A DNA stretch of 64,000 nt from a bacterium (GTDB taxonomy: Bacteria; Armatimonadota; JACIXR01): contig JACIXR010000011.1 of the NCBI GenBank assembly GCA_014360495.1, positions 1-64,000 on the forward strand. The letters run 5' to 3'. The first letter of the stretch is position 1; each line of letters begins with the position of its first letter. The notes under the pieces were generated by a model. The model worked only from the letters and a program-made list of their open reading frames with translations, ran no database searches and had not been told where the DNA came from. Positions 7,907-24,103 of the stretch are shown here, one piece after another. A program made the position numbers and the translations under genes.

Positions 7907-8833
7907 ATGAAAAGGATTTGCATCATAGGAGGAACAGGTCATATCGGAAAGAATTTAACGGAAATGCTTGTTGACGAGGGCTATGAAGTCTTCGTCCTCG
8001 CCCGTGGCGAACAGCCCATTCCCTCTAAACCCCAATGGGAGAGGGTCAAATTCATTAGGAAGTTTTACGATGAGAATCTTAAAGATTGGGAGGAAATCTT
8101 CAAATCCATTCAGCCAGATGTTTTGATAGACATATTGGGGAGTTATGCTCCCGCTGTTTATAAAGTAGCGCTCCCCTATATTGAGCAGTTCATCCTATGT
8201 GGCTCGGTTTGGATGTTCGGAGAGCCGAAGTTAGTGCCGACGCCCGAGGAGACGCAATCTCCCTGCATTTTTCCTGGATATGCGAAGAGATATTCCGAGA
8301 TGTTGGAGCTAAAGGGAAGGGCGAAAAGGGATGGGATAAAGTTCACAGCGATTATGCCTCCCAACATCTGTGGACCGGGCAAGATTCCCCTTGATTGTTA
8401 TGGAGGGAGGAGTTTGGAGCGTCATCTCGCCCACAAGCGAGGTGAGCCCGTTCCCCTTCCCGAGCCCGGCAATACCCTAATTGGTCCTTGCGACGCGGAG
8501 GATGTGGCGAGGGGTTACTTCTTAGCGGTTATGAATCCTGATGATTCGGCGGATGAGATATTCAATGTGGGCTCCGCTTATGCCCTCACGGCGAAGGAAT
8601 TTGTTGAGACATATGGGCGGATTTATGGAGTGAAGATACCGATAGAGTGGCATAGTTGGAGGGAATATTCGGAGGAAATCAATCCCGATGTTGGGGCGAA
8701 TTTTCATTTCAAGGCACATATGTGTCCGAGCATAAAAAAGATAACCGAGAAGCTCGGCTATAAGCCGAGATACACTCCCGAAGAAACAATGGAACGAGCA
8801 GTAAACTGGATGAGAGAAAACGGAATGATATAA
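7907..8833 (+). CDS. NAD-dependent epimerase/dehydratase (extended SDR)
   Basis: The 308-residue protein opens with the nucleotide-binding motif GGTGHIGKNL and has a Rossmann core. The usual SDR YxxxK motif appears as YAKRYSEMLE at about residue 125 but is not a perfect match (Y, then A-K-R-Y), so catalysis may differ. Later motifs PPNICGPG and FNVGSAYALTAKEFVE resemble NAD-dependent sugar-nucleotide epimerases. An AAGGAAGG site precedes the ATG. It diverges from the ADP-ribosylglycohydrolase-like gene across 60 bp and is followed by a zinc dehydrogenase. Confidence 0.8.
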   Translation: MKRICIIGGTGHIGKNLTEMLVDEGYEVFVLARGEQPIPSKPQWERVKFIRKFYDENLKDWEEIFKSIQPDVLIDILGSYAPAVYKVALPYIEQFILCGSVWMFGEPKLVPTPEETQSPCIFPGYAKRYSEMLELKGRAKRDGIKFTAIMPPNICGPGKIPLDCYGGRSLERHLAHKRGEPVPLPEPGNTLIGPCDAEDVARGYFLAVMNPDDSADEIFNVGSAYALTAKEFVETYGRIYGVKIPIEWHSWREYSEEINPDVGANFHFKAHMCPSIKKITEKLGYKPRYTPEETMERAVNWMRENGMI

Positions 8834-8844
8834 GAAAAAAATGC

Positions 8845-8872
8845 TTTACTATGGCGGGTTTATTGATAAAAT
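8845..8872 (+). promoter_or_regulatory. Promoter of the dehydrogenase-membrane protein-gpsA operon
   Basis: TTTACT (8845-8850) and TAAAAT (8867-8872) are 16 bases apart. The predicted start near 8879 would leave a leader of about 16 bases ending in a strong AGGAGGTGA site before ATG 8895. Confidence 0.5.
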
Positions 8873-8894
8873 TTCAAAAAGGAGGTGATTGATT

Positions 8895-9938
8895 ATGAGA
8901 AAGGCGAAAGCTGCTGTCCTTTATAAGCCATTTGATTTGAGGATTGAGGAGGTGGATGTGAGAGAGCCGGCGGAAGATGAGGTTGTGATAAGAATTAAAG
9001 CGGTGGGAGTCTGTGGCTCCGATATCCATTTCTACAAAGAAGGTAAGATAGGGAAGTTTGTTGTAGAGAAGCCCTTGATATTGGGGCATGAATCCGCTGG
9101 GGAAATCGTTGAGGTGGGAAAGAATGTGAAGGAGAGGAAGGTTGGCGATAGGGTGGCGATTGAGCCGGGCATTCCCTGCAGAAAATGCGAGTATTGCAAG
9201 GGAGGAAAATACAATCTCTGCCCGGATATGAAATTCCTCTCATGCCCTCCCTATGACGGGTTCTTCGTTGAGTACGCTGTTGTCCCCTGGGATTTCACAT
9301 TCATCCTTCCTGAAGGCGTCTCCTTTGAAGAGGGAGCCATGGTTGAGCCCCTCTCGGTGGGCATGCAGGCGGCGAAGCGCTCTGGCGTCTCCGCAGGGGA
9401 TACGGTGGCAATCCTGGGAGCGGGACCCATTGGTCTCTGTACCCTCCAGGTAGTTAAGGCTTTCGGCGCTTCCCCCATTATAATCACGGATGTCGTTCCC
9501 AACCGTCTTGAGCTGGCTTCTAAAATGGGAGCTACCTACACGATTAACGCGAAAGAAGAGGATGTTGTCAAGAAAATCAACGAGCTGACGAACGGACGAG
9601 GAGTTGATGCGACTTTTGAATGCGCCGGGCAAACGGCTACAACTCAAATCACTCCTTACATAACAAAGCCCGGAGGAGTTATCACCCTTGTGGGAGTGAC
9701 CTCCGAGGAGGTCTATCCTATGCCGATGCTTGAAATTGCCCATATGCGGGAGCTTGATGTGAGAGGCGTGTTCCGATATGCGAATGTCCATGCCCTCACA
9801 GTCAAGCTCTTGGGGGAGGGGAAGCTTGACGCCAAGCCTCTCATAACGCATAGCTTCTCCCTTGAGGAAACAAAGGAGGCATTGGAATTCGTGGACCAAA
9901 ATAAGGATAAAGTCATAAAGGCAGTAATTAAACCTTAA
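8895..9938 (+). CDS. Zinc-dependent medium-chain dehydrogenase (sorbitol/xylitol dehydrogenase-like)
   Basis: The 347-residue MDR-family enzyme shows the catalytic zinc ligands in GVCGSDIHFY and GHESAGEIVEVG, a structural zinc lobe with four cysteines (CRKCEYCKGGKYNLC), and the NAD-binding motif GAGPIGLCTLQ. CGSDIHFY is typical of sorbitol and xylitol dehydrogenases, so polyol/ketose interconversion is likely. ATG 8895 lies nine bases after AGGAGG; an in-frame TTG at 8889 is too close. A DUF6785-like membrane protein gene begins two bases after the stop, so the two are translationally linked. Confidence 0.88.
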   Translation: MRKAKAAVLYKPFDLRIEEVDVREPAEDEVVIRIKAVGVCGSDIHFYKEGKIGKFVVEKPLILGHESAGEIVEVGKNVKERKVGDRVAIEPGIPCRKCEYCKGGKYNLCPDMKFLSCPPYDGFFVEYAVVPWDFTFILPEGVSFEEGAMVEPLSVGMQAAKRSGVSAGDTVAILGAGPIGLCTLQVVKAFGASPIIITDVVPNRLELASKMGATYTINAKEEDVVKKINELTNGRGVDATFECAGQTATTQITPYITKPGGVITLVGVTSEEVYPMPMLEIAHMRELDVRGVFRYANVHALTVKLLGEGKLDAKPLITHSFSLEETKEALEFVDQNKDKVIKAVIKP

Positions 9939-18859: not shown

Positions 18860-19945
18860 TCAGGGAATTATTGCGAGATTGTCCCTATGGACGACTTCTT
18901 CGTAGCCTTTATAGCCGAGTATTTTCTCTATTTCCTTTGAATGATGTCCCATGATGAGTCTCAACTCCGATGAATCGTAGTTCGTCAACCCTCGTGCGAA
19001 TTCCTTTCCCTCGCAGATGATTCTCACCACATCCCCCCTCTTGAATATCCCTTCAATGCCGATGATTCCCACGGGGAGCAAGCTCTTCCCTTCCTCAACT
19101 ATAGCTTTCATTGCTCCTTCGTTAACGAGGAGCTTGCCCTTAGGGCGGGAGATGAATGTCAGCCAGCGCTTCTTCGCTTGCATCTTCTTTTTGGCTGGAA
19201 TGAATGTCCCCAAGGGTTCTTTATTCAAAATGACTCTTTGAACCACATCCTCTTCCCTTCCCTTTGCGATAACCACATCAACGCCAGAGGCAGTTGCTAT
19301 TCTCGCGGATTCCAATTTGGATTTCATCCCACCCCTTCCCCATCTACCCGCTGGACCAGCCAGCGAGAGAATCTCGGGGGTGAGAGAATCAATTCTTGGG
19401 ATCAGCTTTCCCTCTTCATCAAGCAGTCCCTCAACATCGGATAAGAGGAGGAGCAAATCAGCTGAGATTGTTGCGGATACCATCGCCGCCAATATATCGT
19501 TATCGCCGAACTTTATCTCTTCCGTTGCGACCGTGTCGTTCTCGTTTATTATCGGGATAGCCCCGAGCTGAAGGAGAGAAAGGAGGGTATTGCGGGCGTT
19601 GAGGAAGCGGTCTCTCGTTGCTAGGTCATCGTGTGTCAAGAGGACTTGACCTATCGTCAAATCATAGCGTGAGAAGGCGGATTCATACATCCTCATAAGG
19701 ATTCCCTGACCAATCGCCGCCATAGCTTGAACGAAGGGAAGGGAGAAGCTGTCGGAGAGCTTAAGATGGGATAAACCCGCTCTAATAGCTCCCGATGTAA
19801 CCAGAATGACCTTTACTCCTCTTCTATAGACCTCCGCTATATCCTCCGCCAATTGGGCGATGTAATCTTCGTCAATCTCTTCGCCTTCACCCATTAGAGT
19901 GCTCGTTCCCACTTTTATAACAGCGGTTTGGACCTTCTCTCTCAT
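18860..19945 (-). CDS. proB: Glutamate 5-kinase with PUA domain
   Basis: ProB phosphorylates L-glutamate in the first step of proline synthesis. The 361-residue protein has the amino-acid kinase domain (VIKVGTSTLM, VILVTSGAIRAGL, PIINENDTVA, GDNDILAAMVS, GRGGMKSKLESARIA) and a C-terminal PUA domain from about residue 275 (KGKLLVNEGAMKAI, IFKRGDVVRI). Length is normal. It is the last gene of a leftward operon behind envelope redox genes, its ATG overlapping the stop of the LolA-like gene by four bases. proA lies separately at 35.8 kb. Confidence 0.95.
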   Translation of the reverse strand: MREKVQTAVIKVGTSTLMGEGEEIDEDYIAQLAEDIAEVYRRGVKVILVTSGAIRAGLSHLKLSDSFSLPFVQAMAAIGQGILMRMYESAFSRYDLTIGQVLLTHDDLATRDRFLNARNTLLSLLQLGAIPIINENDTVATEEIKFGDNDILAAMVSATISADLLLLLSDVEGLLDEEGKLIPRIDSLTPEILSLAGPAGRWGRGGMKSKLESARIATASGVDVVIAKGREEDVVQRVILNKEPLGTFIPAKKKMQAKKRWLTFISRPKGKLLVNEGAMKAIVEEGKSLLPVGIIGIEGIFKRGDVVRIICEGKEFARGLTNYDSSELRLIMGHHSKEIEKILGYKGYEEVVHRDNLAIIP

Positions 19946-20652
19946 AATCGAAAGTCCACTCTAAGAGCGCCCTTGGGAGGCTTGAATTTGAAGGTGGAGG
20001 GAGGGATAAGGGAGTTGAGTTTCAGGTTGGAAACGATTTCCTCCATCGTGGCGTATTCGGTGATTATCTGTGTTTTAAGGGGAAGCGAGGTTTTCTTATC
20101 TATATATATCAAGATATTCTCGTCGTTTTTCCCCTTTAGGGAGATGAGTGAATAGGAGGAATTTGGTGGAGTTTTCTCAAGGGAAGCGGAGACGATTCCC
20201 ACGAGGAGCTTTTGCTGTAAATTGGGAGTGAGGACGAAGGACAGAAGAGAGAATCCGGTTGCCTTCTCAATCCTCTCCGGTGTGGGCTCGAAGGAGCTGT
20301 AGCGGTTCGTTTGATGATTGTAATAATAGAGCTGATTTCCATCGCAAACGAAGAGAATCGTCTTCTGTCCTTCTTGCTGGGCTTCAACTCGGAAAAGGAG
20401 TGGCTTCTGCATATAGACATCAGCCGAGCTCTTTTCCGTTTTGCTGAGCTTTTTCCCTCTATAGGTAAGGGTAAGATTGGAAGTGAACTGAACGCTTTTC
20501 AGATTCTTCATCGCCGATTCCATCTTGTTCAAAGCGGCTTGGACATCGGAAGGGAGAACAATAGGCTTCGGTGGAGGGGTTTTCGCCCTCCGAGTAGAAC
20601 AGCCGAAGATAAAAAGGATTAATGGGAAAAGAAAAATTATTCTTTTAATAAT
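19942..20652 (-). CDS. LolA-like lipoprotein, probable ATT start
   Basis: The chain (MESAMKNLKSVQFTSNLTLTYRG, LPLKTQIITEYA, STFKFKPPKGA) resembles LolA/DUF2092-type envelope proteins that bind lipid tails. The first canonical in-frame start, TTG 20532, would leave no export signal. Upstream the frame stays open and encodes a perfect lipoprotein signal, beginning IKR and ending IFGC. No ATG, GTG or TTG exists there; ATT 20652 is 11 bases after a GGGAG tract. With that start the protein has 236 residues. It overlaps the end of the TlpA gene by 16 bp. The function is inferred. Confidence 0.6.
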   Translation of the reverse strand: MIKRIIFLFPLILFIFGCSTRRAKTPPPKPIVLPSDVQAALNKMESAMKNLKSVQFTSNLTLTYRGKKLSKTEKSSADVYMQKPLLFRVEAQQEGQKTILFVCDGNQLYYYNHQTNRYSSFEPTPERIEKATGFSLLSFVLTPNLQQKLLVGIVSASLEKTPPNSSYSLISLKGKNDENILIYIDKKTSLPLKTQIITEYATMEEIVSNLKLNSLIPPSTFKFKPPKGALRVDFRL

Positions 20653-21128
20653 CCCTCTATCATCTCCCGCAAAATGTCTTCGTTTTGTGGCTTATATCCG
20701 AGTATATCCTTTCTAATTTTACCAGTCTTATCTATAAGGAGCAACCTGGGTATAGCAACCACTTTATAGCTCTTTCCCACATTTCCCTTTTCGTCAACGA
20801 GTATGGGAAAGGTGAGCGGATTATTTCTAAGGAAATCCGCAATCGTATCCCTATCCTCATTGCTTATACCGAGAACGACGAGATTTTTATCCTTGAATTC
20901 CTGGTGCAATTTCTCTATTATCGGGAGCTCCTCCCTACAGGGAGGGCACCAAGTTGCCCAGAAATCAATGAGCACGACTTTACCCTTCAAATCAGATAGC
21001 TTATAAAGTTTCCCATCCAAAGCCTTGAGGGAGAAATCCGTAGCTTGCTTTCCCTCCAAGTTGACTTTAGGGGCGCATCCGAAGAGCAAGAGGAGAAAAG
21101 CGAGGAAAGGGACTAATCTCCCAATAAT
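20637..21128 (-). CDS. TlpA-like thioredoxin-fold lipoprotein, probable ATT start
   Basis: The thioredoxin domain has the redox motif FWATWCPPCREELP (CPPC), the cis-proline segment VVAIPRLLLID and a TlpA-type central insert. Such proteins reduce disulfides outside the cytoplasm, for example in cytochrome c maturation. The only canonical start, TTG 21089, falls directly before LFGC and would destroy the signal peptide. Extending upstream gives IGRLVPFLAFLLLLFGC, a textbook lipoprotein signal, from ATT 21128, which is 11 bases after AAGGAG. This gives 163 residues, overlapping the upstream fusion gene by 16 bp. The domain is nearly identical to that of the upstream fusion. Confidence 0.7.
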   Translation of the reverse strand: MIGRLVPFLAFLLLLFGCAPKVNLEGKQATDFSLKALDGKLYKLSDLKGKVVLIDFWATWCPPCREELPIIEKLHQEFKDKNLVVLGISNEDRDTIADFLRNNPLTFPILVDEKGNVGKSYKVVAIPRLLLIDKTGKIRKDILGYKPQNEDILREMIEGLLKE

Positions 21129-22240
21129 TTCGTAATCAACTCCTTCAATATTTTCTCGTTTTGGGGGTTATAGCCTGTTATATCCTTTACGATTTTTCCA
21201 TTCTTGTCGACCAGGATGACGCGAGGTATAGAGGTAACTTTGTATGCTCTGGCCACAGCTCCTTCCGAATCCAAGAGATTTGTGAAGGTCAACTTCTGTT
21301 GGTTGACAAATTGTTGAAGTGTCACCTTATCCTCATCATTTATTCCCAAGACGACCAACCCCTTGCCGCTGAATTCCTTATGTAATTTCTCAATAATGGG
21401 AAGCTCTTCCTGACAGGGAGGGCACCAAGTTGCCCAGAAATCAATGAGCACGACTTTACCCTTTAGGTCGGAGAGCTTATAGGTTTTCCCATCAAGGGAT
21501 TGGAGGGTGAAATCGGGAGCGAGTTGTCCTTCCAAGTTCTCCTCCTTAGGAGGGACATATTCCTTTGCGCCTGGAGGTGGTGTGAAAGCGAATGTTCCCT
21601 CGGGGAAAGAAGGATTGGCTTGAAGGGATATAACTTTGTAAATCATCTCTCCCTGTCCTCCGGGAGGAATAAACGAGACTTGAAGGACTTTATATTCCTT
21701 GGCGTCAACCACTATCTTGATTACAGAGCCATCCTCCTTGTCAGTGAAAGTGATGAGGTGGGCGCTTTTCTTGTTGAGAATTGTTTTGCCCAGAGAGGAT
21801 TTCCCCAATGTGGATAGGAAGTTCTGGCTAGTGAAGGTCTTCTTGCAGATTGGGGATAGAGCTATGGAAATCGGCATAAAGAAGAAGATGCCTTCCTGTA
21901 CTGCTTGGGATGGGACTAGGTTCTTGCTGTATTCATTATCCGTAGAAGAATAGGTCCAGATGTATTCACCGTCATAGACTATTGTGGAGAGCATGGCACC
22001 TTCTCCAATACTCGCCTTGAACTTACCCTTGGTGTTGTCCATCAACAACTCTCCCTTGAGCGTTTGAGACATCGGTCCCATCTTTATAATGAGCTGAAGG
22101 GAGGCTTTAGCCGTCTTATAGTTGGCGTTGTTCTTGTCTATTTTCTCAAGAACCGCCATTATGTCCTTGGGAATGGTTGCTCCCAAAACGAGCAACGTGC
22201 TTCCCACCAACAACAAAATTCCTACAACCGCTCTTCGCAT
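21113..22240 (-). CDS. LolA-like/TlpA fusion protein, exported
   Basis: The 375-residue product has a signal peptide (RRAVVGILLLVGSTLLVLG) and a LolA/DUF2092-like beta domain to about residue 230 (LKGELLMDNTKGKFKASI, GTFAFTPPPGA). A TlpA-type thioredoxin domain follows at about 237-375, with CPPC in FWATWCPPCQEELP and cis-proline in VTSIPRVILVD. Fusion of a lipoprotein-binding-like fold to a thiol reductase suggests redox work at the cell envelope (inference). ATG 22240 follows an AGGAGG site. It heads the operon with separate TlpA and LolA-like genes and proB. Confidence 0.8.
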   Translation of the reverse strand: MRRAVVGILLLVGSTLLVLGATIPKDIMAVLEKIDKNNANYKTAKASLQLIIKMGPMSQTLKGELLMDNTKGKFKASIGEGAMLSTIVYDGEYIWTYSSTDNEYSKNLVPSQAVQEGIFFFMPISIALSPICKKTFTSQNFLSTLGKSSLGKTILNKKSAHLITFTDKEDGSVIKIVVDAKEYKVLQVSFIPPGGQGEMIYKVISLQANPSFPEGTFAFTPPPGAKEYVPPKEENLEGQLAPDFTLQSLDGKTYKLSDLKGKVVLIDFWATWCPPCQEELPIIEKLHKEFSGKGLVVLGINDEDKVTLQQFVNQQKLTFTNLLDSEGAVARAYKVTSIPRVILVDKNGKIVKDITGYNPQNEKILKELITKLLGD

Positions 22241-22795: not shown

Positions 22796-23839
<1,044 letters not shown>

Positions 23840-24103
23840 TCATCCCCCTTGCCCATCGGGATAGACGCTTACTTTGGTCTTTCCTTTGCTCTTCTCAAAC
23901 TTCACATAGCCGTCAATCAAAGCAAAGAGGGTGTAATCGGAGCCAACTCCCACATTTTTCCCTGGGTGGAACTTAGTTCCTCTCTGGCGGACGAGGACGG
24001 AGCCAGCTTTTACGAATTCACCGGCGAACTCCTTCACTCCCAATCTCTTTCCTGCGCTATCCCTTCCATTACGAGATGAACCTCCAGCTTTCTTATGCGC
24101 CAT
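23840..24103 (-). CDS. rpmA: Large ribosomal subunit protein bL27
   Basis: The 87-residue product starts [16 protein letters not shown] and contains [20 protein letters not shown] and [20 protein letters not shown], characteristic of bL27. bL27 sits near the peptidyl-transferase centre and its N-terminus reaches the tRNA ends. No extra N-terminal cleavage sequence, as found in Firmicutes, is present. It lies three bp after rplU and six bp before the proposed obgE ATT codon, the widespread rplU-rpmA-obgE order. Confidence 0.97.

Follow-up and report, generated by a model that had tools for sequence, protein, structure and literature searches.

Putative near-cognate start codons in two overlapping lipoprotein genes and in further conserved genes of an armatimonadotal genus

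The stretch of DNA analyzed here (the window; positions 1–64,000 of contig C11) comes from the 2.55-Mb genome of a bacterium of the phylum Armatimonadota, G000, and was compared with two congeners, G001 and G002. On its minus strand lie two overlapping lipoprotein genes, tlpA2 and lolA, whose reading frames open with ATT ATT rather than with one of the canonical codons ATG, GTG and TTG. We consider it probable, on the comparisons described below, that both genes are translated from ATT by the formylmethionine (fMet) initiator tRNA, with the ribosome held by a Shine–Dalgarno (SD) sequence and coupled to translation of the gene upstream, and that they belong to a set of genes in this genus that would start at the near-cognate codons AUA, AUU or CUG.

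Read from the first ATT, tlpA2 (20637–21128) encodes a thioredoxin-like protein (TlpA/AhpC-TSA; Pfam AhpC-TSA, 1.6e-33), and the lolA-like gene (19942–20652) encodes a DUF2092/LolA protein (Pfam DUF2092, 7.6e-13; LolA, 1e-5). The proposed ATT ATT starts occupy 21123–21128 in tlpA2 (first ATT, 21128–21126) and 20647–20652 in lolA (first ATT, 20652–20650). The SD sequences, AAGGAG at 21140–21145 and GGGAG at 20664–20668, both lie 11 nt ahead of the first ATT, and each gene overlaps its upstream neighbor by 16 bp, tlpA2 the end of a 380-aa gene and lolA the end of tlpA2. The frames read GAA/GGG-ATT-ATT and continue directly into a signal peptide with a basic residue, a hydrophobic run and a lipobox (FGC), in which the cysteine is residue 18 of both proteins counted from the first ATT; these lipoprotein signals were read by eye. 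The original prediction had described this arrangement, and its coordinates were confirmed. It had also stated that neither frame contains a canonical codon before the lipobox. This is correct for lolA, in which the first such codon, TTG 20532, is far beyond the lipobox. For tlpA2 it applies to usable starts, none of which is found upstream of the signal peptide, and fails strictly, as TTG 21089, the sole canonical codon before a lipobox, sits in the hydrophobic core four codons ahead of the cysteine.

Both ATT ATT motifs are kept in G002, where tlpA2 and lolA alike read GGGAGGCGAT-TGA-GAA-ATT-ATT, with only the codon GAA between the in-frame TGA and the first ATT. Since the TGA is so close, the start is confined to the codons between this stop and the signal peptide (GAA, ATT and ATT) or to the signal-peptide codons themselves. 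The lipoprotein features are present in G002 as well (lipoboxes WGC/SGC, again by eye), the first ~35 codons of its tlpA2 are devoid of a canonical codon, and the N-terminus of lolA is conserved in both G001 and G002. The first ATT of each pair would most likely be the start.

Coding frames without a canonical start were collected independently of ATT and then compared with their orthologs; in total, ~1.4 Mb of the G000 genome was sampled. This search for frames with a conserved N-terminus upstream of the first canonical codon, which had been proposed together with the original prediction, widened the set to pyrE, ftsY, rnc, infC, deoA and recN. In pyrE, ATA is found in all three species at SD+11 behind spacers that are little alike, and in G000 a stop codon directly precedes it. 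The putative start of ftsY is likewise ATA in all three species, at SD+9, with TAA just upstream in two of them. The infC starts are ATT, ATA and ATA in G000, G001 and G002, respectively, at SD+10–11 as in tlpA2, lolA and pyrE. In the same order, rnc has ATA, ATT and ATT after TAA GCC; as another AUH codon is found at the upstream stop, rnc has two candidate starts. CTG is the putative start of deoA in two species. Weaker members are recN (CTG in G000, corresponding to position 1 of TIGR00634, and ATA in G001, which has an additional TTG two codons earlier), an unnamed gene (ATA in two species, with a GTG within the SD in G000) and dnaX. The codon set is thus AUA/AUU/CUG, and AUA is no rarer than AUU.

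AUU or AUA at SD distance is conserved in three species for pyrE, ftsY, infC and rnc, and in two for tlpA2, lolA and obgE. In six genes (tlpA2, lolA, pyrE, ftsY, rnc and obgE), the conserved N-terminus cannot be reached from any ATG, GTG or TTG. Of 297 ortholog pairs, at least four (pyrE, ftsY, rnc and lolA) are without a canonical start in either species. Most other listed pairs in which similarity extends upstream of the first canonical codon show an ordinary ATG, GTG or TTG a few codons further along. Relative to the start, the upstream stop ends at +16 in tlpA2 and lolA, +4 in ftsY, –3 in recN, –1 in the unnamed gene, –19 in pyrE and +34 in rnc. Outside the genus, wherever the locus was readable in the phylum, a canonical codon stands near the N-terminus of pyrE and ftsY; the near-cognate habit therefore looks derived in this genus.

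The third ATT candidate, obgE (22796–23833, minus strand; Pfam GTP1_OBG), was read from ATT 23833, 10 nt after GGGGG (23848–23844), and its frame has no canonical codon over ~90 codons. The putative starts in G000, G001 and G002 are ATT, TTG and ATT, respectively; G002 obgE has no canonical start, and its ATT, at GGAGG+9, lies no more than one codon away from where G001 has TTG. The replacement of ATT by TTG in obgE, like that of CTG by ATA in recN, fits a start codon and not an internal isoleucine. In the region 23825–23848, an ATG overlaps the rpmA stop (ATGA), one base out of the obgE frame and directly before a CCCCC run. We first assumed an indel in obgE, an assumption overturned by the ATT in G002.

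The three ATT candidates within 3.2 kb on which the original prediction was built are all present, but they do not amount to three independent cases. The genes upstream of tlpA2 and lolA end in paralogous TlpA tails, QNEKILKELITKLLGD and QNEDILREMIEGLLKE, each followed by the stop. The frame of the upstream gene supplies both elements: its Lys/Arg-Glu codons provide GGAG, and its Leu-Leu codons provide ATTATT. Thus, since this coding sequence is duplicated, the equal spacing in tlpA2 and lolA is inherited and counts as one observation, not two. At all four G000 and G002 junctions, Leu-Leu is written as TTA followed by TTA or TTG, which is expected from codon usage in 4% of Leu-Leu pairs (P = 0.042 for one junction); this codon choice may reflect selection acting on the second frame.

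Spacings in the near-cognate set, read by hand, have a median of 10 nt (11 genes), compared with 9 nt in 79 ATG genes confirmed by their orthologs (one-sided P = 0.004). The claim that near-cognate spacing is longer is therefore borne out, if modestly. The raw rate of startless frames alone does not set this genome apart, being 11 of 981 in G000 and three of 277 genes in a control genome of the phylum. None of the three control frames was, on reading, an evident SD-linked AUA/AUU case, and the genome is distinguished from the control only by conservation and by SD-linked near-cognate codons. An expectation–maximization procedure across all 64 start codons was dropped because it drifted into codon-bias artefacts, and a binomial P value calculated from a hand-set count (8 of 9) was discarded as unreliable.

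The 3' end of 16S rRNA is GGATCACCTCCTTT in all three species, so that the anti-SD is normal. A search for an altered initiator tRNA revealed none: one initiator-type tRNA(CAT) gene was observed, and no initiator-like tRNA carrying a different anticodon was noted. The initiator tRNA (L122:4539–4615) appears to have C1-U72 and a C at position 73 ahead of CCA; that of E. coli has C1-A72 and A73. All three species encode IF3, and it aligns with solved IF3s over nearly its full length. In the C-domain of the genus (L134, which is G000 infC, L135 and L136), a phenylalanine occupies the position at which three aligned solved bacterial IF3s have histidine (MAH/ITH/VAH), and a valine replaces a shared threonine; a link between these substitutions and start fidelity is possible. 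No exotic machinery would be needed, as near-cognate pairing, aided by the SD and by ribosomes that are completing the preceding gene, would suffice.

From these comparisons, we infer that initiation does take place at the near-cognate codons and that it is probably weak, driven by coupling and limited by IF3 as in infC. A strong SD would hold the ribosome at the ATT, the ordinary fMet initiator tRNA would decode it, and ribosomes terminating on the overlapping upstream gene would be delivered to the start by translational coupling. The same route could serve the near-cognate genes tlpA2, lolA, infC, obgE, pyrE, ftsY, rnc and deoA. Perhaps ~1–2% of the genes begin in this way, behind a strong SD with slightly long spacing, with the start in most cases adjoining or lying within the end of the preceding gene.

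Several observations weigh against this interpretation. An SD-anchored scan of 824 kb gave no general excess of ATT (three observed, 3.1 expected), and the genome-wide excess anticipated by the original prediction was accordingly not found. The dnaX start is ATA in G000 but ATG in both G001 and G002, for which reason dnaX was downgraded to a weak member. The start regions of rnc and of the TlpA junctions also encode part of the upstream gene, which gives conservation there another cause. Finally, G001 lolA has GGAGGCGATAGAGAA TTC GCT AAG at the place of ATTATT and lacks an SD-linked near-cognate codon, and thus at least one member of the set has an unexplained start. This gene could possibly start at an ATT that shares bases with the upstream stop (TAATT), in which case its signal peptide would be uncharged.

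The same G001 sequence, in which GGAGG is intact ahead of TTC, raises the possibility that the SD, together with the ribosome terminating on the upstream gene, fixes the start almost regardless of the codon, so that GAA, GGG or TTC could serve and the ATTs would be incidental; that ATTATT doubles as Leu-Leu of the upstream gene points the same way. We regard this as unlikely, since pyrE, recN and obgE, which are not constrained by an upstream frame, still have AUA, AUU or CUG or swap with TTG, and since the codon before ATA in G000 pyrE is a stop.

It is quite unlikely that the proteins start at TTG 21089 and TTG 20532, the first canonical codons of the two frames, and remain cytoplasmic. With such starts, the proteins would lose the signal peptide and lipobox conserved in every species having the genes, and G002 tlpA2 offers no such codon over its first ~35.

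Errors in the assembly (indels or wrong bases) or dead genes are also very unlikely to account for the startless frames, in view of the repeated ATTATT with the in-frame TGA upstream in both G002 genes. The out-of-frame ATG before the CCCCC run in G000 obgE would suit such an explanation, as would a methylase-like fragment without a start in L127. The reading frames are nevertheless intact, and independent assemblies agree, three species for pyrE, ftsY, rnc and infC and two for tlpA2, lolA and obgE. The original conclusion of a rule rather than an error is therefore upheld as regards error, G002 repeating both starts and the obgE ATT, whereas a rule confined to ATT is too narrow for a set that includes AUA and CUG. 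The L127 frame itself (minus strand, 8448–9132 in reverse-strand coordinates) is methyltransferase-like, runs for 50 codons without a start beside a CCCCCC run, and is probably a broken gene or an indel.

Frameshifting by –1 out of the upstream gene, producing a TlpA-(membrane segment)-TlpA/LolA fusion, would match the –1 phase of the downstream frame at both junctions but is extremely unlikely, as no slippery heptamer was seen there by eye, the fusion would bury a lipobox signal within an exported protein, and pyrE and obgE would be left unaccounted for.

The genes of the locus, named partly from Pfam and partly by eye, are ordered rplU-rpmA-obgE-(LolA-TlpA fusion)-tlpA2-lolA-proB on the minus strand. 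The fusion gene (21113–22240) starts with ATG, and its last 16 bp overlap tlpA2. The region 20637–22240 accordingly holds TlpA domains in tandem, one in the LolA/DUF2092-TlpA fusion and the next in the free TlpA lipoprotein. In G001, only the fusion was seen in the locus, with no copy of tlpA2. The ends of the fusion and tlpA2 genes in G002 are nearly identical in DNA, which suggests gene conversion.

The gene for IF3, infC, is known for an AUU, AUA or AUC start through which IF3 controls its own synthesis, and AUU starts are found in E. coli infC and pcnB. The genes described here likewise have AUU or AUA behind a strong SD, infC of the genus itself at SD+10–11; there the genes are isolated cases, whereas here the sequences point to about ten unrelated ones. 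To our knowledge, AUU and AUA starts have not been described as so large a set. In S. aureus, infC (AUA), cvfC1 (AUU), ccpN (AUA) and citZ (AUA) start behind extended SDs, and three tested near-cognate starts gave approximately one-tenth of the AUG output in poor medium (PMC13009471). Conserved AUU/AUA starts and extended SD motifs are common to both systems, and S. aureus spacing is wider than that of E. coli. The S. aureus cases comprise three to four genes established by ribosome profiling and reporters; the present set is larger, is known from sequence only, and includes several starts within overlapping genes. Streptomyces sigR shares the use of a rare start codon, but it is a single gene with GTC, for which repression by IF3 was shown experimentally (PMC5472188). 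Termination–reinitiation at overlapping genes is well described and also involves starts near or upstream of the preceding stop; the overlaps described there are ATGA/TGATG, whereas ours have AUU/AUA and a longer overlap of 16 bp (PMC6728339).

The group seems to use near-cognate starts far above the usual frequency. Standard gene finders, as far as we know, accept only ATG, GTG and TTG; they would thus cut or misplace such genes, here with the loss of signal peptides. A more speculative and rather doubtful extension is that initiation fidelity is relaxed throughout the genus, and that infC, obgE, ftsY, pyrE, rnc, deoA and the lipoprotein genes form a conserved housekeeping regulon whose output would track IF3 activity or upstream translation. 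If near-cognate initiation is indeed used as proposed, the genus would lend itself naturally to testing the trade-off between start-codon choice, SD strength and gene overlap, and it would raise the question of whether near-cognate starts are a regulated class rather than rare curiosities.
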